DNA from: Methanosarcinales archaeon
GTDB lineage: Archaea; Halobacteriota; Methanosarcinia; Methanosarcinales; Methanoperedenaceae
Reading direction: 5' to 3'
DNA length: 64,000 nucleotides
Assembly: GCA_905339155.1 (NCBI GenBank)
Contig: CAJPFJ010000023.1
Coordinates: 1 to 64,000 of the forward strand
A program made the translations under genes and the position numbers. The notes beneath the pieces were generated by a model. The model saw nothing but the letters and a program-made list of their open reading frames with translations. It was not told the DNA's origin and did no database searches. Positions 3,036 through 41,019 of the stretch are shown here, one piece after another (the first letter of the stretch is position 1; every line of letters starts with the position of its first letter).

Positions 3036-4070
3036 TTGACTGATAAAGAGAGGATATTATATATAGATATTTTGAGAATAATATCTATATTAGCTGTCAT
3101 AACAATACATGTAAGTTCATCATTCTTCAAAAATATTAATGTTGATTGGATGGCAGCTAATCTTTATGATTCGTTTAGTCGGTGGTCTGTACCTATAATG
3201 GTTATGGTTAGTGGTTTTCTATTACTTGACCCTCAAAAAGAATACCCTATAAAGATTTTTTTTAAGAAGAGGGTTAATAAGATTCTAATCCCTTTGATCT
3301 TTTGGGGGATTGTATATACAATATGGAAATATAAAACAGGTATTATCGAAGGGCAATCTTTGCCTATAATGTTGATTTTGAAAAGTTTTATAGATGGAAC
3401 AGTCTTTTATCATTTGTGGTTTATTTACATGATTATTGGCTTATACATTTCTACACCGATTTTAAAAATATATATTAAACATGCCACCAGAAATGATATA
3501 AAATATTTTTTAATAGTGTGGTTTCTATCATCTAATATTATTGACATTTTTATGAAAAGAATACATATCGGATCATTGATAGATCTCCATCTTTTTACTG
3601 GTTTTGTGGGATATTATATATTAGGACATTATCTAAAAGACTTAGAATATGATAAAAAATGGACAATATCCTTACCATATGTTCTATTTATATCCGGTTT
3701 TTTAATTACATTTGTTGGTACATATATAATCAGTTTAAACAAAGGATTATTTGATGGAATATTTTATAATTATTTCGCACTAAATGTACTAATGATGTCC
3801 ATTGGTATATTTATTTTAGTTAAAGATATTGAATGGAGCAAGACAATCAAAAATATATATTTGAAAAATTTTATTTTAGACGTTGGCCCTCTAGCCTTCG
3901 GGATATACTTAATACATGCTCTAATTTTACAATGGTTAAATTCGTTAATTAAAATAAAGTTGAATCCTATAATAGATATACCTCTTACGGTAATTTTGGT
4001 TGCATCTATTAGTTATATATTAATAAAAATCATGAAAAAACTGCCTTTAATTGAGAAAGCAGTTCCATAA
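3036..4070 (+). CDS. Acyltransferase family 3 membrane protein (OafA/WecH-like)
   Basis: The N-terminus RILYIDILRIISILAVITIH contains the family signature with the catalytic histidine in the first membrane helix (TIHVSS). About ten hydrophobic segments follow over 344 residues, as usual for enzymes that O-acylate sugars at the membrane. The start is a TTG with a clear GGAGG eight bases upstream (3024-3028). The only nearby ATG (3019) runs into a stop. It opens a strongly AT-rich block. Inferred role: acetylation of the surface glycan or its lipid carrier. Confidence 0.85.
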   Translation: MTDKERILYIDILRIISILAVITIHVSSSFFKNINVDWMAANLYDSFSRWSVPIMVMVSGFLLLDPQKEYPIKIFFKKRVNKILIPLIFWGIVYTIWKYKTGIIEGQSLPIMLILKSFIDGTVFYHLWFIYMIIGLYISTPILKIYIKHATRNDIKYFLIVWFLSSNIIDIFMKRIHIGSLIDLHLFTGFVGYYILGHYLKDLEYDKKWTISLPYVLFISGFLITFVGTYIISLNKGLFDGIFYNYFALNVLMMSIGIFILVKDIEWSKTIKNIYLKNFILDVGPLAFGIYLIHALILQWLNSLIKIKLNPIIDIPLTVILVASISYILIKIMKKLPLIEKAVP

Positions 4071-4124
4071 AATAAGGAAGAATACGAATAATGTTTACCC
4101 ATATGAGGAAAAACTAAATCAATA

Positions 4125-5198
4125 ATGAAAAATAAAAACATTCTCCTGATAGGAAACTATGGAAATTACAATATTGGAGATGAGATACTCTTAAAAGTCA
4201 TTGTATTGGATTTATTAGAAAAAGACAATCAAACAAAAATATCAATACCTGTCCGTAATCCAAAATTCATAGATATTTATCATGCAGATATATCCCATTC
4301 GTTGAACAGTTTCAATGTATATGATATTAAAGAACTGTTAAATTGTCTAATCAGTTCGGATAAAGTGATTGTAGGAGGGGGGGGTATTTGGAGTGGATAT
4401 ACAGGAAGACTCGCTAAGTTGATACCTTTCTTCCTAATTATATCAAAAATTCTAGGAAAAGAAGTCATAGTTAAAAGTGTAGGTTTATATAATACCGCTC
4501 CAAGAATTGAAAAAATATTTGTCAATTTAAGTTTTTTTTTCGTAGATCAATGCAGTGTTAGAGATGAGGAATCATTTAATAATATTTGGAGTTTGAACAA
4601 GAAGGTAAAAATTGACAAAGACCTGGCTTTAGAATTACCAGCTATTCTTTTGAAACATGGACTACGCCAAAAATATGACGGTATACTAAAAGAGACACCT
4701 GAATATAATATTCTTAATCATATTAAAGCTCAAGATAAATATATAATAGGATTATCCATAAAACCTTTAAAAAATTTAGAAAAAACAAGAGAATTAATCG
4801 ACATCACCTCAAAATTTATTAATATTGAAACTATCAAATATAATCAAAGAGTACATTTTGTATTTTTTCCATTCGCAGGAACAAACTCACATATAGAAAA
4901 TGATGAGATGCTAACTGATGAAATTATAAAAAAAGTTGAGTTTAAAGAAAATATAACAGTGATTTCGCGAAATAATCCTATTATTTGGTATCTTCTTATA
5001 AGATTTGTCAATATTTTCATTGGAATGAGATTTCATTCCATAATTTTTGCTTTTGTTAATAATGTACCGCTTCTGGCAATACCATATGAAAATAAGGTCT
5101 GGAATTTTATTAAAGATGTAAAACTCGAAAATGTGGTAACTTTAGATGATCTTAATGAAAAATGCCTGATCAAGTTTTTAGAAGACAATATTAGATGA
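4125..5198 (+). CDS. Polysaccharide pyruvyl transferase family protein (CsaB-like)
   Basis: The protein starts with NILLIGNYGNYNIGDEILLK, the nucleotide-like N-terminal motif of the family. Near the end it has GMRFHSIIFAFVNNVPLLAI, which matches the conserved R-x-H region of pyruvyltransferases. At 357 residues it has the normal length and no membrane segment. Family members transfer pyruvate from phosphoenolpyruvate to sugars of surface polymers, producing ketals that can anchor S-layer proteins. It lies six bases before the next gene, so it is co-transcribed. Confidence 0.85.
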   Translation: MKNKNILLIGNYGNYNIGDEILLKVIVLDLLEKDNQTKISIPVRNPKFIDIYHADISHSLNSFNVYDIKELLNCLISSDKVIVGGGGIWSGYTGRLAKLIPFFLIISKILGKEVIVKSVGLYNTAPRIEKIFVNLSFFFVDQCSVRDEESFNNIWSLNKKVKIDKDLALELPAILLKHGLRQKYDGILKETPEYNILNHIKAQDKYIIGLSIKPLKNLEKTRELIDITSKFINIETIKYNQRVHFVFFPFAGTNSHIENDEMLTDEIIKKVEFKENITVISRNNPIIWYLLIRFVNIFIGMRFHSIIFAFVNNVPLLAIPYENKVWNFIKDVKLENVVTLDDLNEKCLIKFLEDNIR

Positions 5199-5204
5199 AT
5201 ATTC

Positions 5205-7376
5205 ATGAATAAATATATAAAATATATGGGACAATTTGCAGGAAAATATAAGCATATTATTGGTCTGATCATCATAAATATTATATTTTTATCTGGTATT
5301 ATTATTCCTGATGGAACTATAATTCAGAGAGATTTCAATTTTCCTTTATATAATGAGAATTTTATAACTTATTCTACTTACATGTGGAATGACCTCGCAT
5401 CTCAATCAAATATTGAACAGACTTTGAGATTGTTTATAAGGTTTCCATTCATACTTTTAGCTTATTTTGGAGTAGGAATCGATATCATATTAAAATTAAT
5501 GATACTGGTTACGTATACATTTATCAGTATTTCATTTTTCATTTTTATCAGCGAGATTTTTAAAATTTCAGGATTTGGTAACAGAAATGTTGCTATGATC
5601 GCCTCACTCTTTTTTGCTTATAATCCGGTCTCATTACAGTTTTCCGGAGGAATTTCATTACTTTTTTCTTTAGGGATTCTGCCTTTGCTTTTGTTTCTCA
5701 TACTGAGATATCAAGAAGTTAATAATATTAAATTTGTACTATTATTCTCAATATGTCTTCTGTTTTCTATAGGACACCCATTTATTTTTGTTATGAATAT
5801 AGTAATATCATTCTTATTCTCAATATCCATCATTAATTCAAATATATGGTCTTCAATAAAGAAATATTTTTTTATAACTATATTGTTTAGTTCATTATTT
5901 TTATGGTATATAATCCCATATATATCCATGGGTGTATCCAGTGTTGATATTGGGCATTCCTCAAATCTGGAAAGAAGAACATTCGAAACTGTATCAGATA
6001 ATACCATATATAAAATTTTATCTTTAGAAAGAGATAGGTTTATCTATGTAAATACTTTTCCAACTAATGAGCCGCATAATTTAATGCACATTTTGTCTCT
6101 GGGCGTCCTTCTGGCTATATCATTCTCGGTCTATTTATCTGGTTTCCGATTGTTTCCTATATTTATAAGAAGATTTATATTATTTGTAAGTATAGGATAT
6201 ATATTTACGTCATTATTATCTCTTGGAATAAAATCCCCGATTGGAGAATTATACTGGTATTTTGTTTCATCCACACCAATAGGATTCATAATAAGATCGC
6301 CCTTAAAATTCCAGCTTTATCAAGCTTTCTTTTTAATATTACTTTTTATTGTAAGCGTGTCAATTTTATTGAAAAAGTATAATAGCATATCCCGCAGTCA
6401 ATATCCATTAATTTTATTGATAGTGATTTTTTTAGGTGTCTCCTCTTACGGTATTATAGATGCCAATACGAACTCCTTAAAACCTATAAATATTCCATAT
6501 CAATTCTTTGAAATTAACAAGATTTTAGAGGAAAAAAATGATACATACAAGGTCATGTGGTATCCGAGATATAACGAAATAGACACAAATTGGAGTAAAG
6601 GACATAAAATAGCAGCTTTTGATATGAAATCTTCAAGAAAGCCAACTTTTAACACAGCGACAAATTATAACTTTATAAATTATTATTTATTTGATTTGCC
6701 TTATAAGTCAAAAATGTTTAAGACGAAAGAATATTATAACTTTTTATTATCTATAAGTGTAAAATATATAGTATTCCATAATGACAGGGGTTATTTGATA
6801 GACAATAATACATTAAAAGATATTAAAGCAAAATCGAATATGATATATAATAAGGATAATTGGTACTTATTTGAACTAAAAGGTAAACCTGCAAATATTA
6901 TTGATGCTCGCCGCAATATCAGTTTAACGGAATACGTTTTTAGGAATGCCTCCCCAACTGATGGAATAATTAACGTATCAGATATAGAACATATAAAAAA
7001 TAAAGACATTGTTACTAAAATCATATTAACAGAGTATAAAGGAGATACTCAAATAACAAATTATACTAAAATAAAACCCACATTATGGAAAGTGAACGTA
7101 AATACATCAAAGCCTTTCTTGTTATCATTTTCTGAAACATATGATAAGCTGTGGGAGGCGACAGTATATATAGATGGTAAAAAGATAGAAGTGATCGACC
7201 CAGTCCCTATATACTCAGTTATTAACGGATTTTGGATTAGTGAGACTGGAAATCTTGAAATTGTAATAAGATATAAACCCCAGGATTGGTTTGACATTGG
7301 CATACTAATTTCCCTGATAGTTTTAATTAGTTGTATTGGATACACATTATACGATTGGAGAATTAATAATAAATGA
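5205..7376 (+). CDS. Large multispanning membrane protein with extracytoplasmic C-terminal domain (GT-C/YfhO-like)
   Basis: The 723-residue protein has roughly ten to twelve hydrophobic helices in residues 15-420. A hydrophilic domain follows over about 430-690, then a last membrane helix (IGILISLIVLISCIGYTLY). This plan is shared with lipid-dependent glycosyltransferases of the GT-C superfamily and YfhO-like proteins, but no catalytic motif was recognised, so the reaction is unknown. The soluble part contains SFSETYDKLWEATVYIDGKK, a beta-rich stretch often seen at the end of such proteins. It overlaps the next gene by four bases (ATGA). The next two genes together have the same architecture. 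Confidence 0.7.
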   Translation: MNKYIKYMGQFAGKYKHIIGLIIINIIFLSGIIIPDGTIIQRDFNFPLYNENFITYSTYMWNDLASQSNIEQTLRLFIRFPFILLAYFGVGIDIILKLMILVTYTFISISFFIFISEIFKISGFGNRNVAMIASLFFAYNPVSLQFSGGISLLFSLGILPLLLFLILRYQEVNNIKFVLLFSICLLFSIGHPFIFVMNIVISFLFSISIINSNIWSSIKKYFFITILFSSLFLWYIIPYISMGVSSVDIGHSSNLERRTFETVSDNTIYKILSLERDRFIYVNTFPTNEPHNLMHILSLGVLLAISFSVYLSGFRLFPIFIRRFILFVSIGYIFTSLLSLGIKSPIGELYWYFVSSTPIGFIIRSPLKFQLYQAFFLILLFIVSVSILLKKYNSISRSQYPLILLIVIFLGVSSYGIIDANTNSLKPINIPYQFFEINKILEEKNDTYKVMWYPRYNEIDTNWSKGHKIAAFDMKSSRKPTFNTATNYNFINYYLFDLPYKSKMFKTKEYYNFLLSISVKYIVFHNDRGYLIDNNTLKDIKAKSNMIYNKDNWYLFELKGKPANIIDARRNISLTEYVFRNASPTDGIINVSDIEHIKNKDIVTKIILTEYKGDTQITNYTKIKPTLWKVNVNTSKPFLLSFSETYDKLWEATVYIDGKKIEVIDPVPIYSVINGFWISETGNLEIVIRYKPQDWFDIGILISLIVLISCIGYTLYDWRINNK

Positions 7377-8458
7377 AGAATTTGAATAAATATTCTTACA
7401 TTATTTACTTTTTAGTTCCTATATCGATTGTTATAATCCCTTTACTATTTGGCAAATATATTTTTGCATTTGATTCTATTCCAAAAAATCATTTTGATAC
7501 ATTTTATGGAGAAATGATTCCCATATATGGAGGCACTCTTTTTTTTGATTTTGTATATAGCAGAATAATATATTTTCAGAAAATCATACTTTTTCTAATA
7601 TTATTTTTGAGTGGATACTCGATAAGTCATTTTTGCCAGAAGATATCTATATCAACAGCCTCACAATTATATGCAAGTACCTTATACATATTTAATCCTT
7701 ATGTATATATTAGAATAGTTTCAGGTCATTGGCCAATGTTATTTTCCTATGCCGTACTTCCATTCTTACTAAAAACGTTTATGGATCTACTGGACAGAAA
7801 AGAAAAGAAAGAAATAATTAAATTTGTATTCCTTTTATCAATAATATCTTTCAATATTCATATACTGATAATATCGTTTATGATTATGGGCATAATATTT
7901 TTATTCTGGTATAACAAAAACAGGGACATTAGAATTTTTCAAATTATTATATTGTCCTTAATATTATTTATTCTTTTAAATTTATACTGGATCTTGCCTG
8001 TGTTGAGTGCACAAAATATTCAAATAGAGAACATCGGAGAGAGAGATTATGAAGTATTTACTCCAAAAGGAGGACTATTGGATATTGCATCTATGTATGG
8101 ATTCTGGAATGAAGGATATTTAACTCCAAAAGATTTTCTTCCTGGCTGGCAAATTCTTTATTTGATTATATTGTCACTAACAATATTAGGATTTATTTAT
8201 TATTATAAAGACCAGAAGATCGGCATCTATGTTAAAGCATTTGCCGTGATCGGAATACTGGGCTTCATTCTCGCAAGCGGGGTAAATGGACCCTTTGGAG
8301 ATGTAGTAAGATGGTTATTTGACAATACATTATTGAAAGGATTCAGGGATTCCCAGAAGTTCGTTGCCATGCTGGTTCTGGCGTATTCGGTGCTCGGGGG
8401 ATTGGGATTGAATAAGATCAAAAATGTTTATGATAAATATAATCCAAGAGAGGCCTGA
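7373..8458 (+). CDS. Multispanning membrane protein, N-terminal half of a divided GT-C/YfhO-like protein
   Basis: The 361 residues are nearly all hydrophobic helices and correspond in plan to residues 1-390 of the 723-residue neighbour. Both end at a K-K/D-KYN motif just before a further helix. The frame is closed by TGA at 8456-8458, and the following gene starts with ATG at 8459 in the same frame. Without that one TGA the two would read as a single protein of about 650 residues. Translation is coupled to the upstream gene by an ATGA overlap. Whether the product works with the next one as a two-chain protein, or is a disrupted gene, cannot be decided here. Confidence 0.7.
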   Translation: MKNLNKYSYIIYFLVPISIVIIPLLFGKYIFAFDSIPKNHFDTFYGEMIPIYGGTLFFDFVYSRIIYFQKIILFLILFLSGYSISHFCQKISISTASQLYASTLYIFNPYVYIRIVSGHWPMLFSYAVLPFLLKTFMDLLDRKEKKEIIKFVFLLSIISFNIHILIISFMIMGIIFLFWYNKNRDIRIFQIIILSLILFILLNLYWILPVLSAQNIQIENIGERDYEVFTPKGGLLDIASMYGFWNEGYLTPKDFLPGWQILYLIILSLTILGFIYYYKDQKIGIYVKAFAVIGILGFILASGVNGPFGDVVRWLFDNTLLKGFRDSQKFVAMLVLAYSVLGGLGLNKIKNVYDKYNPREA

Positions 8459-19442: not shown

Positions 19443-20852
19443 TTATTTCGGTTTTGGAGGCCAATTTTTCTCCATCCAGCCGGGAATTCTTCCTGAGTCC
19501 GGGGGACCGATCTTCACATGAAGTCCAGTCGCATCTTCCACATCCCCCTGCAGCCTTGCAGCAAGACCCGGGAGAATAATAGTGCCATGGGACGTTTTAT
19601 CCTTGAAATTGAAATTGGCCTTCTCGAATGTATCTTTTATTTTTGCTGCCGTTAACTGCCCGCCAGCAACAGCTGCTTCAACTCCAATACCGTCGGTATC
19701 CACTGCTGCAAGATAACAGTTTATCTTATTAGAAGAAAGGTCGCTCTCCACAGTGTAGTAAGTAAGAGCGAAATTTGTTGTAACTATGACTGGTGAATCA
19801 TTTGTTGGAGTCCCAACCTCATTTACACCTGGTGCCACTTTCACTGGTGTTCGCGGATCGGTGTATATGGTATCCCGGATGTGAACTTCGGGCAGCATGG
19901 CATACGGCTCAAGGCTGTGAAGTATCATAATGTCACCGTACTTTACAGTAAATACCGAAGCAAGCACCGTTTCCCAGTAAGAAGCGGTAACCGTCTCCTT
20001 ATAAACAAGCCAGGCATTAAGAGGAACAGCCATGATCGGGTAAGCTATATCCTTTTGTCCTTCTTTTATTCCCGACCGGCGAAGTTTTATGAATCTTTCA
20101 AAAGTTTCTTTCAATTGTTTACCCTGAGGATAAGTGCCGGGATCAAGAACAATATCCTTTATGCCCATTTCCCCGAAGGTCAGGGCAAGGGATTTGAGCT
20201 TATCAAGATCTGGTGAGAATAATACAACTGGAACTTTATAATTCAAAGCAAGTTCTGAAACTTCACTCCAGTTTTTCTCATTTGCCGCATATATGAGCGG
20301 ATTCTTATCCTTAACGACTAAAAGTCCGGCTTTTAAAACCGCCGGATCAAATGAACAGAGTACGAGTGGAAGGTTTGTGAGCTCATTTACTTTTCTGACC
20401 GCCGCTGCAAATTTTAGAGCATCTCCGGAAACGCATCTTATGGCTACCATGTCAACTTTCAAGAACTTCCCTACATAGAATTTCTTGAAATTCTGGATCT
20501 TGTTCACTCTTTCTGCAAGTTCATTTTCAGGCATTGTATCCCAGACATCGTAAGCTAATGCTGTCGGGTCAAAGAAAGTCAACTGGTGACGGTAAAGAAT
20601 ATCATCCCCGCCAATCCTTTTTGCATGTTCCCCTGTACCGATAGTGATCTCGCGTATCTCCGGGGCAAGAAGGGTCAGCAATTCCAGGTATTTTTTCTTA
20701 AATTTTTCATTGAGTATGGGCGGGCAATCAGCAACTTTCTTTGACCTATCAATGAGATGTGATGCAAAAGCCATACACGTTGCCTCACCGCATTCGGCGC
20801 AATTTGTCTGTGGCAGGAATTTATAGACTTGAAGGGGACTATTTACTTTCAT
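19443..20852 (-). CDS. cdhE: Acetyl-CoA decarbonylase/synthase gamma subunit (corrinoid iron-sulfur protein, large)
   Basis: The N-terminal LPQTNCAECGEATCMAFASH holds the C-x2-C-x4-C part of a 4Fe-4S site whose last cysteine comes 16 residues later (ADCPP). A TIM-barrel and corrinoid-binding C-domain follow, for 469 residues in all. It carries the methyl group on a corrinoid between tetrahydro(methano)sarcinapterin and the acetyl-CoA-forming centre. The ATG at 20852 shares one base with the cdhD stop, so the subunits are translationally coupled. An upstream in-frame start inside cdhD was rejected because it would add residues not seen in the family. Confidence 0.95.
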   Translation of the reverse strand: MKVNSPLQVYKFLPQTNCAECGEATCMAFASHLIDRSKKVADCPPILNEKFKKKYLELLTLLAPEIREITIGTGEHAKRIGGDDILYRHQLTFFDPTALAYDVWDTMPENELAERVNKIQNFKKFYVGKFLKVDMVAIRCVSGDALKFAAAVRKVNELTNLPLVLCSFDPAVLKAGLLVVKDKNPLIYAANEKNWSEVSELALNYKVPVVLFSPDLDKLKSLALTFGEMGIKDIVLDPGTYPQGKQLKETFERFIKLRRSGIKEGQKDIAYPIMAVPLNAWLVYKETVTASYWETVLASVFTVKYGDIMILHSLEPYAMLPEVHIRDTIYTDPRTPVKVAPGVNEVGTPTNDSPVIVTTNFALTYYTVESDLSSNKINCYLAAVDTDGIGVEAAVAGGQLTAAKIKDTFEKANFNFKDKTSHGTIILPGLAARLQGDVEDATGLHVKIGPPDSGRIPGWMEKNWPPKPK

Positions 20853-22141
20853 TATACCACCGCCGTGATCCAATTATCAATATTTATGGGCTCTGTTTCT
20901 TTCAAACCATACAAAGTCTGTGTAATTTCCTTGAGGACCTGTACAGCTGTAGGGTGCATCATCATGAAAAGATCGTTCCCTGCAAGGGATAAGGTCAAAC
21001 CTGTGATTATTTCCCAGATAGGTCCTCGATACTCACGCGGTCCCCAGTCGGAATCTTCCTTCAAAGGTGACCCTGTCATCCATGCTTCACGCGCCCCCCA
21101 GGCATTTGTGGTACCGCTTGACATGGGGAAATTAAGTTCGGTATCCCCGGATAAGCCGGCAAGCCTTATCCTTTCCATATTCGTGTAAGCATAATCAAGC
21201 CCATATCCAAGAGCAGCAGTCGTCGGGTCCATCAATATATTTTCGCGCGCCACACCGCACTGTTTCATAAGCTTTCGGTTAAGTTCTTTCTGTGCGTTTA
21301 TCTCAAGTTGTGTCCATGAGAGCACAACATGGTTATATTTTTTAGCTGCCTCAGCGATCCTTGCATAATCAAGGTTCAAACTGGCTGAGGCAAGAATACA
21401 CCGTTCGCCTTGCGCGACCTCTGCTGCTTTCTCAAGAACGGCCGGGTCTTTTTCCGGGTTACCCGAACCGCCGATCACGATTGGCACATCCACTGCCTGA
21501 AGAACGTCTTCAACAGTTTTTGCAGCCTGGGCAGGAGATGTGTCCTTGATGTTAGGATCAGTACTGATCAGATGAATTGTGACCATATCCGCCCCGAAAT
21601 CCCGGACAACTTTCTTTGCCCATTCCGCAGGACTATTGATAACGTCCTCATAGTTGGATTTTACCGCTTTTGCCATGTTGATCGGCATGTCAAAAACGTC
21701 CATAGTAATATGATTGCGATGGGGCATGGGGCTGTCAAAATAATAAGGAAGGGCATTTTCTCCGCCAAGTGTTATTGTACTCTTCCTGCTTCCACCATCT
21801 GATGAAGTTGCCCCGAGCACTACTTCCTGAATAGGAGTTTTCCATTCCTCTATCTTTCCCACGTTGAATTTTGACTCGATCAACTTGCTTAACTTCTTTG
21901 GAGCTGCAACCTGTTGTCCTCCTAACACCTGGTCAACCGGATAACCCAGAATTCTTGAAATATTCATCAAGTGGAGAGCCACCTGGGCAGTTTCCTGGCC
22001 TAACGCATATGCCATCTGGGGATTCATACCCACTTGTCCGAGGTCTATCTCAACATCACCTTCTATTTTTACTCCTTCAAGGGCTTCAATATCGCCTCCA
22101 AGAAGGCTTCCAAGTTCAGAGAGTTTGATCTTTTTTGTCAT
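20852..22141 (-). CDS. cdhD: Acetyl-CoA decarbonylase/synthase delta subunit (corrinoid iron-sulfur protein, small)
   Basis: From [16 protein letters not shown] the 429-residue protein has the family N-terminus and then a TIM barrel with [30 protein letters not shown] and [17 protein letters not shown]. It pairs with CdhE in methyl transfer. The start at 22141 is used because residues before it are not family-like. A TATA-like TTATATATG about 55 bases upstream provides a promoter. The genes for CO dehydrogenase (cdhA, cdhB), acetyl-CoA synthase (cdhC) and the nickel-insertion factor are not next to it in this window. Confidence 0.95.
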
Positions 22142-22288
22142 TCTTACATCCCATTTCGCACTATTAATCATCTATGATAAAACTCGCTACATATATAATT
22201 TTATATTTCGGGATCACAACGCTGCAATTAATATACTAAAAAGATCTAATAATACCGCTGGAACTCACTCATCGATAAGAGGAGGAAT

Positions 22289-33725: not shown

Positions 33726-33749
33726 AGGCAGCTTTTTGCCTTCATTTTT
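33723..33749 (+). terminator. Hairpin terminator
   Basis: TGAAGGCA (33723-33730) pairs with TGCCTTCA (33737-33744) around GCTTTT and is followed by TTTTT. It ends the RND operon and lies against the stop codon of the convergent CDF gene, so it may serve both strands. Confidence 0.7.
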
Positions 33750-34636
33750 CATAGTATTGCTGCTGCATCCATGTGAATGAAACAATAACCCCCCTTTATA
33801 GATTCATGTACCCGCATTCGTACTTCTTCTGCTATACGGGCTGCCTCTTCAATAGGGGTCCCTTTTAGCACGTCGATATGCATTCCCAGATGAATAGTAT
33901 CAGGTCCGATATACTCCGCGCGTATTTCATGCACTCCTATTACACCTTCTACCGAAAGGGCTTGATTCTCAACATTTTTTAATAATTCGGGTCCTGGTGA
34001 ACGTCCCAGCAAGAAGCTTAAGTTCTCCTTGAACAGCCCTATGGCATTGTAAGCTATTATGGTAGCAACTACTATAGAGGCAATAGGGTCAGCAATGTAT
34101 TCTCCTTGAATAATGAATATTGTGCCTATAAGCGCAGCAATCAGGCCCAGTTCGTCATTGAATAACTCAGTAAGCTGTGCTCTGGCAGCAGCTCCATGCT
34201 TTTTTTGCCTGAACATGTTTATCAGGGGAATTCCTGCGATAAACATCGATATGATAAGCACTCCCAGAGCCAGGTTCAGATTCTGATAGCTCACTGCTTC
34301 AGGCGCAAAGAGTTTTGGGATTGCTTCCCTGTATAGTTCGAAACTGGTGAAGGAAATAAATAGAGTTGCAGCCACAAGGGCAGCCACATTCTGCGCCCGG
34401 CCGTAACCGAACATGTGTACCACATCGGCTTGCCTGCGCGAATATATTAATGCCAAAAGCAGGAAGCTTGACACGAAGATGTCGCTAAGGGTGTGCAGCG
34501 CTTCAGCAAAAATGGCCATAACCCCTGTCATAAAATATACTGCCAGTTTCATGACAAAAATCAGGACATAGACTCCAACTACTATTTTCAATGCACGAAT
34601 ATCGCTTTCCTGCGAGGAGTCAGTTGCGTAACTCAT
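33749..34636 (-). CDS. Cation diffusion facilitator family transporter
   Basis: Six membrane helices and a C-terminal cytoplasmic domain in 295 residues. Helix 2 keeps the metal motif H48-x3-D52 (EALHTLSD). In helix 5 the usual D-x2-H-x3-D is replaced by E157-x2-N160-x3-G164 (TELFNDELG), so the central metal site is changed. Helix 6 has ADPIASIVVA. The C-domain GVIGVHEIRAEYIGPDTIHL is typical of CDF. Zinc, iron or manganese cannot be told apart, and the altered site could mean another substrate. It follows the ABM gene by seven bases. Confidence 0.85.
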   Translation of the reverse strand: MSYATDSSQESDIRALKIVVGVYVLIFVMKLAVYFMTGVMAIFAEALHTLSDIFVSSFLLLALIYSRRQADVVHMFGYGRAQNVAALVAATLFISFTSFELYREAIPKLFAPEAVSYQNLNLALGVLIISMFIAGIPLINMFRQKKHGAAARAQLTELFNDELGLIAALIGTIFIIQGEYIADPIASIVVATIIAYNAIGLFKENLSFLLGRSPGPELLKNVENQALSVEGVIGVHEIRAEYIGPDTIHLGMHIDVLKGTPIEEAARIAEEVRMRVHESIKGGYCFIHMDAAAIL

Positions 34637-34643
34637 TTGGGCA

Positions 34644-34949
34644 TCATTTGTCTTCTGAAGTTATTATTACTTCATAGAAACCGGGTGTTGGCGATCCTTC
34701 CAGCAATGGCTCAACCTTTTCCCATGCAGTTTGACGCTCATCGCTTAAGTGCATGGTCATAAAGGTTTCTTCGCTTTCATGTTCAACGATCGCAGCATAG
34801 TTTTTCTTACCCCTGGTTGGTTTTAATAAGCGCCTTGATATAAATCCATCAAATTTCTCATATATTGTATTTGACCAAGTAAACCATTTCTTAAATTCTT
34901 CATCCTGTCCATTTCTAATAGGTGGGAATTGAACAATATTAACGAACAT
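34644..34949 (-). CDS. ABM (antibiotic biosynthesis monooxygenase)-like ferredoxin-fold protein
   Basis: 101 residues with the pattern of a dimeric alpha-beta barrel: FVNIVQFPPIRNGQDEEFKK, FDGFISRRLLKP and NYAAIVEHESEETFMTMH. Proteins of this fold include small monooxygenases, haem-degrading enzymes and proteins of unknown role. No specific catalytic histidine set is seen. It is likely co-transcribed with the CDF transporter. Its enzymatic role is not assigned. Confidence 0.75.
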   Translation of the reverse strand: MFVNIVQFPPIRNGQDEEFKKWFTWSNTIYEKFDGFISRRLLKPTRGKKNYAAIVEHESEETFMTMHLSDERQTAWEKVEPLLEGSPTPGFYEVIITSEDK

Positions 34950-36988: not shown

Positions 36989-38164
36989 TCATTTCTTCTT
37001 ACTTTTCATGCGGGAAAAGTAAAATATAATTCCAGCCGCAAGTATTACCGCAATAACCGGTATTATCATTCCATTTTTATTTGTATCGCGCACATTTAAA
37101 GTAAGTGCCTGTTTAACTGTATGCCTTCCAAGATCATCTTCAAACTCGATATTGGCATCATACGGGATATCGCCGCTTTCTGCTGCATTGAATGTAAATA
37201 CACCAGGAGCATCATCATCAGGTTTTATCTTTCCAAGAAAGGCAGTTTTTGTTCCACCAAATGGTATGTTGAGGCTTACTTTTGCGGATCTGGCATCTCC
37301 ATTTCCTGAATTTTCTATGCGCATAGTCATTGTAACAGGATCGCCTTTAACCGGATTTTGAGGCTCTGTTTTGATATTTCCAATTGAAAGTTGAGCATTA
37401 CCAAGTATATTCACACCTACAAAACTCTGGGAACTCTGGTTTTTTCCGGTTTCATCCTTATAGTCCATCTTTATCGGGATCGAGTACGAAGAAATTACAG
37501 TTTTATCTTTAACAAGGAGACGAAAGCTTAACTGGATATACTCATCCGGCCGGAGTAATTTTATGATCTTTGTGTCGGCATCTGCAGGAACGAATGGCAG
37601 GCCGGATGTTGATGCACCGATCTCTACTTCACGCGCTATACCCGACCCAGCATTTGAGAGTAAAAATGTAATGTTGAACATATCCTTAGGGCTTATGAAT
37701 TCAGGTTCGATCGTAATATTGGATATTGCAAGCTGGGGCGTTCCCTGCACATTGATCTTAAATGTTTTATTAATTTCACGCGGCTGATCATTGCTCAACC
37801 AGCGCGCCATGAACTCAATTTCATAAATACCTGAAAAAGCTCGAGGATCAATATGAAGAAGATAAGTTTCAGCCACAGTGCCGTATTCAATAATAGTCCC
37901 TTCATTGATAACCCTATCATTTTCATTTTTAAGGATGATCGATGGATCAGGATTTAAGGTTAGAATAACGGTATTTGCCTCGACGTTCCCATTTGCAAGT
38001 GTGACCGAAAGCATAAGATCCTGGCCAGGTTCGACAGGTTGGGGCGAGAGTTTACCTAACACCAGATCAAGTTCGGCATTGGCAGGAGCTATCAACAAAA
38101 GGATTACAGCGACTGCGAACAGGATTGATCTTTTAATACAGGATATATTTGATTTATTATTCAT
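36989..38164 (-). CDS. Exported COG1361/CARDB-like protein with C-terminal anchor, ABC-associated
   Basis: A signal peptide ([18 protein letters not shown]) is followed by three beta-sandwich segments, each with the N-x-G-x-G/A pattern of CARDB domains ([35 protein letters not shown]), and a C-terminal helix and KSKKK tail. It is 391 residues long and resembles in plan the protein linked to the RND halves, although the transporters are unrelated. Its start overlaps the stop of a TetR remnant (ATGA). An AAGGAG 12 bases upstream is inside that remnant. It is the first intact gene of the ABC operon. Confidence 0.85.
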
Positions 38165-38280
38165 AGTATGATGATTCTCCTTGCTAATTCTGCAATTTTT
38201 CTAGTCCTTGCACCCTCAAATCCATCCTCAGCGAACACTTTCATAGCTGCATTCAAGATTCTTTGCTCAGTTATATTCAT
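38161..38280 (-). pseudogene. Truncated TetR-family repressor (N-terminal DNA-binding fragment)
   Basis: The 39-codon frame encodes [20 protein letters not shown] followed by [10 protein letters not shown], a plain TetR helix-turn-helix start. It then runs into RRIIIL and a stop just where the recognition helix and the 150-residue ligand domain should follow. The stop overlaps the start of the exported COG1361-type gene. A TATA box ACATATATATG (about 38304-38313) would place the transcript start at about 38283, close to the ATG at 38280. An earlier ATG at 38292 is also in frame. The remnant and its operator suggest that a once-regulated exporter operon lost its repressor by deletion. Confidence 0.7.
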
Positions 38281-38282
38281 CA

Positions 38283-38306
38283 ATGCAAGCATGTACTTGC
38301 TTGCAT
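38283..38306. promoter_or_regulatory. 24-bp perfect palindrome, probable TetR operator
   Basis: Nine-base arms ATGCAAGCA and TGCTTGCAT are separated by TGTACT. The site overlaps the edge of the TATA box and the predicted transcript start of the TetR remnant and ABC exporter operon, where a repressor would act. Confidence 0.7.
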
Positions 38307-38328: not shown

Positions 38329-39681
38329 TCAAGTACTGTTTACCTTTATTATGCTTATTAAAATAAGATCATACGCGATCAACAATCCTCCCGCAAAGGC
38401 GATCAACCCGCCAATTAATCGCCATTCAAAATACGGTAATAGAGTATTCTGGACGCTCATAAAACTCAAACCCTCGACCCTTTGCTGGTATACCTGGATG
38501 ATACCTGCGATCAACAATGCGATTATCATATTCATAAAACCAATAACAAGAAGCCAGAATCCAATTTTTCCCCTGTACTGTGAAAAATTCCATCTTCCTG
38601 ATATTTCCGGGATTGCAAGATACGCAATTCCAATAACGAGTAATAGATATGTGCCGGGAGTAGCAAAATGAGCATGTGAAGACGTAATCTGGGTTCCGTG
38701 CGTGAAGAAATTGATCTGCGGCAAAGTATGGATAAAGCCCCACAATCCTGCTCCGACAAAGTTCCCGATCGTAGCTCCAATTATCATGTAAAGCACAACT
38801 TTGTTCGGGATAGGTTTTTTGTTCTCTTTCAGGTCTATATATGCCGACCAGACCATAAGGAAAAGAGGAACAGGTTCAAGCGCGCTAAAAAGTCCGCCAA
38901 GAAAAATCCAGAAGTCAGGAGTCCCGATCCAGTAATAATGATGACCCTGCCCGATTATTCCTGTAAGAAGAATGAGTGCCACTTCAATTGCCAGGTATTT
39001 TTCAATTATTTCACGGCGCACCTGCGTCATTGCCAGGAGAATAAGCGCTATTACCCCTGCTGCTATCAATTCAAATGAAGCCTCAACCCAGTAATGAACT
39101 ACCCACCACCTGAAATATTCAGCAGCTACAATGCTGTCAAACCATATTTCACCAGGAACATACATTAATATCGAGCCTATTGCGCCGGCAGCAAGGACAA
39201 GAATGGGTGAACTTAATTTGTTCTTGCTTTCAAGGATCGTAGCGAGCACATTGTAAACAACGCTTAAAAGTCCAACTGTGAGAAGGATATCCCATAATCT
39301 TCCAGCTTCCAGGTATTCTCTTCCTTCTACCAGCCACCAATTTCTTCCTGTGAAGAAAATCTCAGAGAAGATGATTCCGATTCCAATAAGAAGAAGGAAC
39401 CAGAACTGAATATCGATCAAATGCGGATGCAATATGTCTCGCCCGGCCTCAACCGGAAGCAGATAATACAGGCCGCCAATAAATCCAAGAAGCAGCCAGA
39501 GTACCATTAAATTGAGATGCAGCGCTTTTAAAATATCAAATGTCAAAGGCAAATTTGTTGAAGAGTCTCTTGCAAGGAACATAACGCTCATCACAAGACC
39601 AAGCAGCATCTGGACAATAAATAGCAGGATAGCGGCAATGAAGTATTTCCTTGTTTTTATTTTTGATGGATATTCACTCAT
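38329..39681 (-). CDS. norB: Nitric oxide reductase large subunit, cNOR type
   Basis: 450 residues, twelve membrane helices, haem-copper oxidase superfamily. Every metal ligand of cNOR is present: haem b H55 and H338, haem b3 H336, FeB H196, H247 and H248, with glutamates E200, E204 and E269. Most sit at a constant offset of 11 from the Pseudomonas aeruginosa numbering as I recall it. Motifs are HYWVEASFELI, GHHYYWIG, FSALEPVPLF and SSHAHFA. It reduces NO to N2O. Start ATG 39681 lies four bases after norC; longer in-frame starts fall inside norC. There is no quinol-type N-terminal extension, so electrons should come from NorC. Confidence 0.93.
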   Translation of the reverse strand: MSEYPSKIKTRKYFIAAILLFIVQMLLGLVMSVMFLARDSSTNLPLTFDILKALHLNLMVLWLLLGFIGGLYYLLPVEAGRDILHPHLIDIQFWFLLLIGIGIIFSEIFFTGRNWWLVEGREYLEAGRLWDILLTVGLLSVVYNVLATILESKNKLSSPILVLAAGAIGSILMYVPGEIWFDSIVAAEYFRWWVVHYWVEASFELIAAGVIALILLAMTQVRREIIEKYLAIEVALILLTGIIGQGHHYYWIGTPDFWIFLGGLFSALEPVPLFLMVWSAYIDLKENKKPIPNKVVLYMIIGATIGNFVGAGLWGFIHTLPQINFFTHGTQITSSHAHFATPGTYLLLVIGIAYLAIPEISGRWNFSQYRGKIGFWLLVIGFMNMIIALLIAGIIQVYQQRVEGLSFMSVQNTLLPYFEWRLIGGLIAFAGGLLIAYDLILISIIKVNST

Positions 39682-39685
39682 TATC

Positions 39686-40267
39686 TCAAGCCTCCCCGTC
39701 ATTTTTCTTATTCTCATAAGCAAGAATAATCGCAAATATCAGCAAGTTTATAAATACAATCCCTGACAATGCCTGCCAGATATCCGAAATAGCCAGTTTT
39801 TTTGCAGACGTACTGTCCGGATTACCGTCCCTCTCCCATGAACCAGCGCCAGGCCAGCCGTTGGTATCAAGCATATTTGTATATTTCAAAAAAGCGGTTA
39901 TCCTGTAAGCGTCATCTTCTTTCATGCCTCGATCAAGCATGTGCGGCATACCCTTTGCGGGTGCACCTGAAAGAATAAAATTGGAAAGCGCTGCATCATT
40001 TTCTCCTATTCTTTTATGAACCGTCGTCAGGTCAGGTGCGAAATATGCCCCATTCCCTACGATGGTATGGCAGCCCATGCACTGGTATTGCTCGAAGGCT
40101 TTCTTTCCTTCAACTGCATTGTATTCTTTTTGATCAAAATTCACACTTACAGATAAAGAATCGGGATTCCTATTGGCAAAATCCGTGTAGAATGAGATTA
40201 TGCTAAACGGGATCATAAGAATTGCAGGGATAAGAAGCCCGATCAATATGAGCCGATTATTGTTCAT
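39686..40267 (-). CDS. norC: Nitric oxide reductase cytochrome c subunit
   Basis: 193 residues with an N-terminal membrane anchor (residues 6-27), one haem c site C63-M-G-C66-H67, and the family end MLDTNGWPGAG. MPHM supplies a candidate axial methionine. Unlike usual NorC of about 150 residues, a second membrane helix follows at the C-terminus (about 164-186, IVFINLLIFAIILAYE). It carries electrons to NorB. It overlaps the di-haem cytochrome gene by four bases, and norB follows after four bases. Confidence 0.9.
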   Translation of the reverse strand: MNNNRLILIGLLIPAILMIPFSIISFYTDFANRNPDSLSVSVNFDQKEYNAVEGKKAFEQYQCMGCHTIVGNGAYFAPDLTTVHKRIGENDAALSNFILSGAPAKGMPHMLDRGMKEDDAYRITAFLKYTNMLDTNGWPGAGSWERDGNPDSTSAKKLAISDIWQALSGIVFINLLIFAIILAYENKKNDGEA

Positions 40268-41019
40268 CTTTCTTTAAGCCCCCTTATAAAAAGATATAAT
40301 ATAAAAATCGCCAATCCTGCTGAAACAAAAATTATTGCAACGCCGCCTGTTGTATTATGCCATTCCTTTCCAGGGGATTGAGGTCTGGTTGGCGCGGGAA
40401 TAGGCGCTGTGAGCTCATAATCACTGAACTGGAATGTGAATACATATTTTACGGCATCCCAGCGTTCATTTTCTGTCAGGTCGCTCTTCCATGAGCGCAT
40501 GGCTGTCCCGGAGACGCCCTGGGTTAAACGATCAAAAAAAATGGATGGCTGCTTTACTGCCATCTGGCTCAAATTCGTAAAATCAAAAGCTCCGGGCAGA
40601 CCATCTCCTTTAATACCATGGCATCCCGCACAGTTCTTCCCAAAGACCATTTTCCCTTTTTCTGCTGACTGCCTGTCGATCCAGAAAGTCCAGAGATATG
40701 CTATGACATCCCATCGGTCTTTCTTTGGAAGTCTGCTAAAAGATGGCATAGCGCTTCCTGAAATCCCATTTGTTATCGAATCAAAAAATACTGATGAATT
40801 GGATTTGATCATCTTTTCGCTGCTTGTGAAATTGAAAGGAGAAGTTGATCCATCACCTTTTTCACCATGGCATCCTGCGCAGTTCGAGAGATATATTTTT
40901 TTTCCGGATTCAATCGAAGATCGCTCATCTGGATAGTAGATAGCTGAGGCACTTGCCGAAGATATCATTATACATAAACTTATTAAAATAAAATATATTT
41001 TCCAATTGATTGAACCCAT
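40264..41019 (-). CDS. Membrane-anchored di-haem cytochrome c
   Basis: A signal peptide (cut near SASA) leads two tandem cytochrome c domains of about 80 residues, each with CAGCH (C47-C50-H51 and C130-C133-H134) and a later methionine (M91 in SAMPSF, M174 in GTAMRSW). The domains are alike: FFDSITNGISGSAM against FFDRLTQGVSGTAM, so the gene arose by internal duplication. A C-terminal helix (GVAIIFVSAGLAIFILYLF) anchors it outside the membrane. It heads the nor operon and is the likely electron donor or relay to NorC. Confidence 0.88.
   Translation of the reverse strand: MGSINWKIYFILISLCIMISSASASAIYYPDERSSIESGKKIYLSNCAGCHGEKGDGSTSPFNFTSSEKMIKSNSSVFFDSITNGISGSAMPSFSRLPKKDRWDVIAYLWTFWIDRQSAEKGKMVFGKNCAGCHGIKGDGLPGAFDFTNLSQMAVKQPSIFFDRLTQGVSGTAMRSWKSDLTENERWDAVKYVFTFQFSDYELTAPIPAPTRPQSPGKEWHNTTGGVAIIFVSAGLAIFILYLFIRGLKER

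Follow-up and report, generated by a model that had tools for sequence, protein, structure and literature searches.

Can a methane-metabolizing archaeon reduce nitric oxide (NO) to nitrous oxide (N2O), and to what end? The question is raised by three genes on the minus strand of the 64,000-nucleotide stretch of archaeal DNA analysed here (the window). An earlier note on the sequence had described them as a leftward operon of a cNOR-type NO reductase, joined by 4-base overlaps or gaps, that would serve NO respiration or detoxification and would have been gained by transfer.

Organization of the nor operon

The genes of the operon follow one another on the minus strand in the order di-haem cytochrome c, norC, norB. 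The cytochrome gene (40264-41019) and norC (39686-40267) overlap by 4 bases (ATGA), and a gap of 4 bases separates norC from norB (38329-39681), which confirms the three-gene arrangement, its coordinates and its spacing. The start of norB is an ATG at 39681 that is conserved among close relatives. A mechanical open reading frame call placed the start at a TTG at 39735; this was dropped, as the close relatives share the ATG.

After norB, the region 38161-38306 contains what is left of a gene for a TetR-type regulator, a truncated 5' piece (38161-38280, minus strand), with a perfect inverted repeat of 9 bases ahead of it (38283-38306). At the same place one relative (L021) has a full-length TetR gene, situated between norB and a CARDB gene, as well as an M24 peptidase gene. 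A CDF (cation-efflux) gene and a small ABM-like gene, often together with an M24 peptidase gene, recur beside the nor cassette throughout the genus (33749-34949 in the window; L020-L029 and L071).

NorB is a cNOR catalytic subunit

NorB is a 12-helix catalytic subunit of 450 residues with sites for haem b, haem b3 and FeB, and it matches the Pfam COX1 family with an E-value of 4e-71. The best matches in the Protein Data Bank (PDB) are the cNORs from P. aeruginosa (3o0r_B, 5e-84) and R. denitrificans (4xyd, 5e-82), and qNORs and cbb3 oxidases follow far behind. The identity to the crystallized cNORs is 36-37%. In the alignment all 11 key positions, which cover the haem, FeB, Ca2+ and glutamate classes, are kept: His-60, His-207, His-258, His-259, His-347, His-349, Glu-135, Glu-138, Glu-211, Glu-215 and Glu-280 in Pseudomonas numbering correspond to His-55, His-196, His-247, His-248, His-336, His-338, Glu-122, Glu-125, Glu-200, Glu-204 and Glu-269 of the window NorB. 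The six histidines are those of haem b, haem b3 and FeB, and Glu-200, Glu-204 and Glu-269 are the active-site and proton-path glutamates. NorB has no fused N-terminal domain, and haem c resides in a separate mono-haem NorC encoded upstream, the two-subunit plan of the P. aeruginosa (3o0r), R. denitrificans (4xyd) and Thermus NorCB enzymes.

A NorB tree of 37 rows was rooted on qNORs, with the bacterial cNORs drawn from plasmids and the PDB. The cNORs form one clade apart from the qNORs (support 100/100), and the window NorB lies inside it. Within the clade, the bacterial cNORs (100/99), Methanoperedens (69/100) and Archaeoglobi (100/100) are each recovered. The Archaeoglobi branch first, followed by Methanoperedens together with the bacteria, but this order is not firm (90/62, with long branches flagged), and the AU test (p = 0.48) does not reject a tree that constrains Methanoperedens and Archaeoglobi NorB to one group. 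The Methanoperedens NorB branches deeply, next to the Archaeoglobi and the bacterial cNORs. The clade and the residues together support the earlier reading of a cNOR-type NO-to-N2O reductase with every haem and FeB ligand and the catalytic glutamates in place. Within the genus, the dN/dS of norB is about 0.12-0.15, which indicates that the nor genes are under purifying selection.

NorC carries a second membrane helix

NorC (193 residues) matches 3o0r_C with an E-value of 1e-12. It contains a single CxxCH motif at residues 63-67 (40067-40081, minus strand) followed by GNGAYFAPDL, in which Gly-73 and Tyr-75 occupy the positions of the Ca2+ contacts in bacterial NorC. Besides the N-terminal membrane helix, there is an extra hydrophobic helix at the C terminus, at about residues 160-184 (39716-39790, minus strand). 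The earlier note had seen both the single haem motif and the extra helix, and the helix, a passing remark there, is the more informative observation. It is conserved in Methanoperedens and common to the Archaeoglobi, with Trp-164, Phe-172, Phe-178 and Tyr-184 invariant in both groups, and a profile alignment of the two groups of NorC spans it (E = 6e-22). It is also carried by the NorC of genome G206, which we take to be Ferroglobus from its gene content.

The bacterial NorCs sampled, taken from plasmids and from PDB entries (Thermus, Thiothrix, Amphritea, Azospirillum, Sphaerotilus and Paracoccus), have no such helix; their chains end about 13 residues or less after the TN.WP motif begins. 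Of the 232 plasmid records that match NorC, not one does so over 80% of the query at a single location. A single-helix anchor, customary for the NorC of cNORs without defining them, has been described for the Paracoccus enzyme (PMC9976466); the window NorC has the second, C-terminal helix in addition.

In qNORs a membrane helix, TMHII, comes after the cytochrome c-like domain and the equivalent TN.WP motif; cNORs are described as lacking this helix, which keeps the dimer of qNOR together (PMC6713497). The C-terminal helix of the archaeal NorC would stand in the position of TMHII. This equivalence is a positional argument, because the archaeal NorC profile aligns with qNOR in its N-terminal part only, as far as the region of the haem motif, and ends before the C-terminal helix; the bacterial NorC profile was the sole one aligned to qNOR through to the TN.WP anchor. 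The AlphaFold model of NorC is of low confidence (pLDDT 63). In contrast to the window enzyme, qNOR is one fused chain that lacks haem c and has a quinol site. A qNOR identity for the window operon was rejected on the separate NorC with its CxxCH and the lack of a single fused chain.

FeB insertion and the missing NorQ

Insertion of FeB in P. denitrificans is carried out by NorQ and NorD and requires the NorB residues Asp-220 and Glu-222, and cNOR made without NorQD has no FeB and is inactive, whereas qNOR needs neither NorQ nor NorD (PMC9976466). These maturation genes are typical of proteobacterial cNOR, without defining it. Neither this genome nor any of 14 further archaeal genomes with norB has a match to NorQ (PF08406). 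A genuine NorQ scores about 107 bits as a positive control, and the Amphritea NorQ used as a direct query found no match. The position of Paracoccus Asp-220, which is aspartate in all seven of the proteobacterial cNORs, is arginine or lysine in all Methanoperedens and proline in Archaeoglobi and Thermus; Glu-222 is mostly kept in Methanoperedens.

The economical explanation is that FeB is inserted independently of NorQ in these enzymes. Alternatively, because the P. denitrificans cNOR lacks FeB when NorQD is missing, the absence of NorQ could mean that the archaeal enzyme is inactive, unless there is another route for FeB.

A wider proposal would combine NorQ-independent insertion with the NorC helix. 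The archaeal NorCBs of Methanoperedens and Archaeoglobi may represent an unfused, haem c-bearing qNOR architecture, in which the NorC helix is the counterpart of TMHII (2 + 12 = 14 helices in Methanoperedens), the complex perhaps forms a TMHII-type dimer, and FeB, like that of qNOR, is inserted without NorQD. In that case they would represent stem lineages of the step between cNOR and qNOR, and the helix would have been lost in bacterial cNORs. We put this forward tentatively, with the odds leaning against it.

The di-haem cytochrome and the proposed electron path

The first gene of the cassette encodes a cytochrome c of 251 residues with a signal peptide, two class-I haem domains that are duplicates of each other, and a C-terminal membrane anchor, as the earlier note had recognized. 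The first CxxCH is at residues 47-51 (40867-40881, minus strand) and the second at residues 130-134 (40618-40632, minus strand); Met-91 and Met-174, both invariant, are the respective candidate sixth ligands. In 12 out of 12 genomes this gene comes first, and the constant order of cytochrome, norC and norB implies that the cytochrome belongs to the system. In Mnv1 (nitroreducens; L023:4521-5343) it is split over two overlapping frames, by either a frameshift or a sequencing error.

The nearest solved relative is 6h5l_B (profile search, 3e-22; fold search, 6e-7 with a low overall TM-score), the di-haem chain of the Kuenenia Kustc0457/Kustc0458 complex. There it partners an octahaem HAO-like protein that is a candidate nitrite-to-NO reductase (PMC6423088), whereas the window cytochrome is membrane-anchored and accompanies NorCB. 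Bacterial cNOR operons differ from that of the window in having no such upstream anchored cytochrome.

The archaeal counterparts are closer. The Archaeoglobi operons (L066, L067 and L068), of which Ferp_1340-1341 of Ferroglobus was reported in 2011 (PMC3236036), share with the window the NorC helix with its W/F/F/Y residues, the lack of NorQ, all of the catalytic residues and an anchored cytochrome c. Their cytochrome, however, is mono-haem, has a PGF-type C-terminal anchor and is situated two genes after norB. Between the two, directly after norB, lies a gene for a UbiA-family prenyltransferase, presumably haem O synthase-like. Their NorB is about 90 residues longer and 36% identical, and their NorC has a second N-terminal helix. 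A tethered cytochrome donor may thus be common to both archaeal operons.

Gene order and membrane anchoring are what make the di-haem cytochrome a candidate electron donor to NorC. In the proposed path, electrons from the membrane chain would reach the anchored cytochrome and pass to the haem c of NorC, and from there by way of haem b to the haem b3/FeB site of NorB. At this site two molecules of NO would be converted to N2O, with protons entering from the outside via Glu-280.

A probable role in NO detoxification

From the gene order, the cofactor ligands, the glutamates, the place in the cNOR clade and the conservation of the cassette as a unit, all read directly in the sequence, we infer an active enzyme, its electron path and its role. 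The operon probably encodes an NO-to-N2O reductase for NO detoxification or overflow that is fed through the anchored di-haem cytochrome, a reading to which we assign a probability of about 0.8. The enzyme would work beside nitrate and nitrite reduction rather than as the main respiration, and its NO would come from by-products of nitrite reduction or from neighbours. Detoxification is ranked before respiration because this genome contains no NirS, has no NirK above the cut-off and encodes NrfA. The NrfA gene and a NarG-type nitrate reductase gene are located on contig C10, beside a qNOR of 753 residues.

A 2022 study reports that both cNOR and qNOR of Ca. Methanoperedens are transcribed (PMC8906906). 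A 2024 study reports an increase of norB and norC under salt stress, when nitrite accumulates, which its authors read as a response to nitrosative stress (PMC11337218). Ferroglobus, another archaeon with NorBC, produces N2O (PMC3236036), which also counts in favour of the reading. The literature searched contains no report of N2O formation by Ca. Methanoperedens itself. To our knowledge, no enzyme of this clade has been purified. The second NorC helix counts against the detoxification reading, since it departs from the bacterial cNOR plan, and the second NOR of the genome, the qNOR, could carry the NO load.

The strongest alternative is a respiratory NO reductase, in which the reduction of NO, coupled to methane oxidation, would sustain growth as part of an incomplete denitrification chain. 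A complete NorBC with a dedicated donor cytochrome would suit such a role, partner organisms may supply NO, and Ferroglobus, which lacks both NirS and NirK, converts nitrate to N2O by way of NO (PMC3236036), so that an unrecognized NO source is possible. Against it are the inventory of nitrite reductases given above and the NrfA route to ammonium. Furthermore, cNORs are considered non-electrogenic, and most genomes of the genus have no norB, although nitrate-dependent growth is the norm in Ca. Methanoperedens. We consider respiration unlikely. Of the two roles named in the earlier note, detoxification fits better and respiration is weakened.

Host, distribution and origin of the cassette

Among the genomes of the named collections, the closest relatives of the window belong to Ca. 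Methanoperedens (BLZ2, nitroreducens Mnv1, MnB_21 and others), and most of the nor-carrying relatives fall in the same genus. The window also contains the CODH/ACS delta (20852-22171) and gamma (19443-20873) subunit genes, and FtsZ and Orc1/Cdc6 genes are on the same contig. The methane-metabolizing host proposed in the earlier note is therefore identified as Ca. Methanoperedens, by its relatives and its placement in the genus.

Genes for NorBC are mostly bacterial, and their spread here is patchy: norB occurs in 13 of the 186 genomes of the order, once as a fragment. Full-length NorB is encoded in 12 genomes. Ten of these, counting the present one, belong to the genus; the eleventh is from a different genus of the family, and the twelfth is placed in another family. 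The cassette keeps its order in every one of them. The genome from the other family (ANME-2 cluster archaeon B4-08, G018; L025/L074) has the intact cassette on a contig of 13 kb, through transfer or misbinning. In G007 (C163; L017/L071), a NorB fragment (69% identical) at the end of a contig continues the reading frame of a CDF gene, a junction that is likely an assembly chimera or a deletion.

Such a distribution would suit a recent acquisition of the operon from a bacterium, but the sequences argue otherwise. NorB identities of 73-94% among Methanoperedens indicate that the cassette is old within the genus. Bacterial NorB homologues are 36-38% identical, and plasmid-borne ones among the matches listed do not rise above about 38%. 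NorB forms a deep branch of its own, with no bacterial donor identifiable in a tree whose bacterial sequences come from plasmids and the PDB, and the NorC architecture is common to Archaeoglobi and not to the bacteria of that sample. Recent acquisition is accordingly rated as distinctly improbable. The transfer proposed in the earlier note is supported in part, by the patchy distribution, and no donor can be named.

Glutamate variants and the NO dismutase alternative

Glu-280 is replaced by glutamine in BLZ2 (codon CAG; L006/L020) and in G046 (CAA; L008/L072), whereas it is glutamate in every other sequence examined. The use of two codons in two assemblies argues against a sequencing error. 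The FeB histidines are intact in L020, and the two carriers pair weakly in the gene tree (54% support). This glutamate is on the proposed route of periplasmic protons in cNOR (PMC6713497).

Another NorB (FeB_1/G045; L026:7995-10568, equal to L012/L087) is fused in frame to about 400 extra membrane-protein residues, giving a total of 857; the extension has no Pfam match and no homologue in the 186 genomes of the order. On contigs C5, C9, C10 and C22 of this genome there are four short open reading frames (about 133-149 residues) that match only one end of the COX1 family and are, judged by this match, small haem-copper-oxidase-like membrane proteins.

The Glu-280 variants bear on whether NorB could be an NO dismutase or an oxygen reductase and not a NOR, which we regard as very improbable. 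Oxidases belong to the same superfamily, and NorB has a weak similarity to ccoN, but its score of 49.9 bits compares with a cut-off of 583, and with its firm place in the cNOR clade a cbb3-type oxygen reductase (CcoN) was rejected. In NO dismutases, a FeB histidine is changed to asparagine, whereas in the window NorB none of the three FeB histidines and none of the glutamates is replaced, and a dismutase identity was rejected on these grounds. The glutamine of the two relatives recalls the putative NO dismutases, in which a glutamate near the catalytic centre is likewise glutamine (PMC3413370).

Assembly context

The nor segment might be bacterial contamination attached to archaeal sequence, a concern for bacterial-type genes in a 3.34-Mb draft genome with an estimated contamination of 5.4% (window on contig C23). 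This is excluded for practical purposes by the archaeal neighbours of the segment, its GC content equal to that of the contig, the low identity of its bacterial homologues and the synteny with other assemblies, where L021 keeps the order Rsm22-like gene, nor cassette, CARDB, FtsX, ABC, ABM-like and CDF genes and L020 keeps it from the cassette onward.

Elsewhere in the window, positions 4001-8000 have a GC content of 27%, compared with about 41% in the remainder. This region contains a gene for a protein of 723 residues without a Pfam match (5205-7376), with a polysaccharide synthesis gene nearby, and is possibly an acquired island.

Relation to reported enzymes and implications

The presence of a cNOR in Ca. 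Methanoperedens is already published, and the operon itself is not new, which reduces the novelty implied by the earlier note. A cNOR (norBC) and a qNOR (norZ) were reported in 2022 in a Ca. Methanoperedens nitroreducens metagenome-assembled genome (MAG) and called previously undescribed by its authors (PMC8906906), and norB is variable among Ca. Methanoperedens MAGs (PMC11264602). The reported enzymes come from the same genus and form the same pair of cNOR and qNOR, and our L020 is the BLZ2 genome. The available text of PMC8906906 and PMC11337218 covers presence and expression; the C-terminal helix of NorC, the di-haem cytochrome, the missing NorQ and the change of Glu-280 to glutamine are not discussed there. 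In the literature searched we did not find a description of the C-terminal NorC helix, conserved in Methanoperedens, common to Archaeoglobi and absent in the sampled bacteria; of the lack of NorQ in the tested norB-bearing archaeal genomes together with the loss of one NorQD-contact residue; of two relatives with glutamine in place of Glu-280; or of a deep NorB branch for which the plasmid and PDB sample offers no identifiable bacterial donor.

The NorC helix at the place of TMHII and the missing NorQ provide a handle, at the level of sequence, on the kinship of cNOR and qNOR and on FeB insertion without NorQD, and the Glu-280 variants are natural mutants of the proposed proton relay. Ca. Methanoperedens are important for the consumption of methane where nitrate is plentiful and oxygen is absent, and N2O is itself a potent greenhouse gas. 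An NO reductase that is conserved in some members of the genus is relevant to whether they release N2O during methane removal, and the detoxification reading predicts that the archaeon itself would release N2O.
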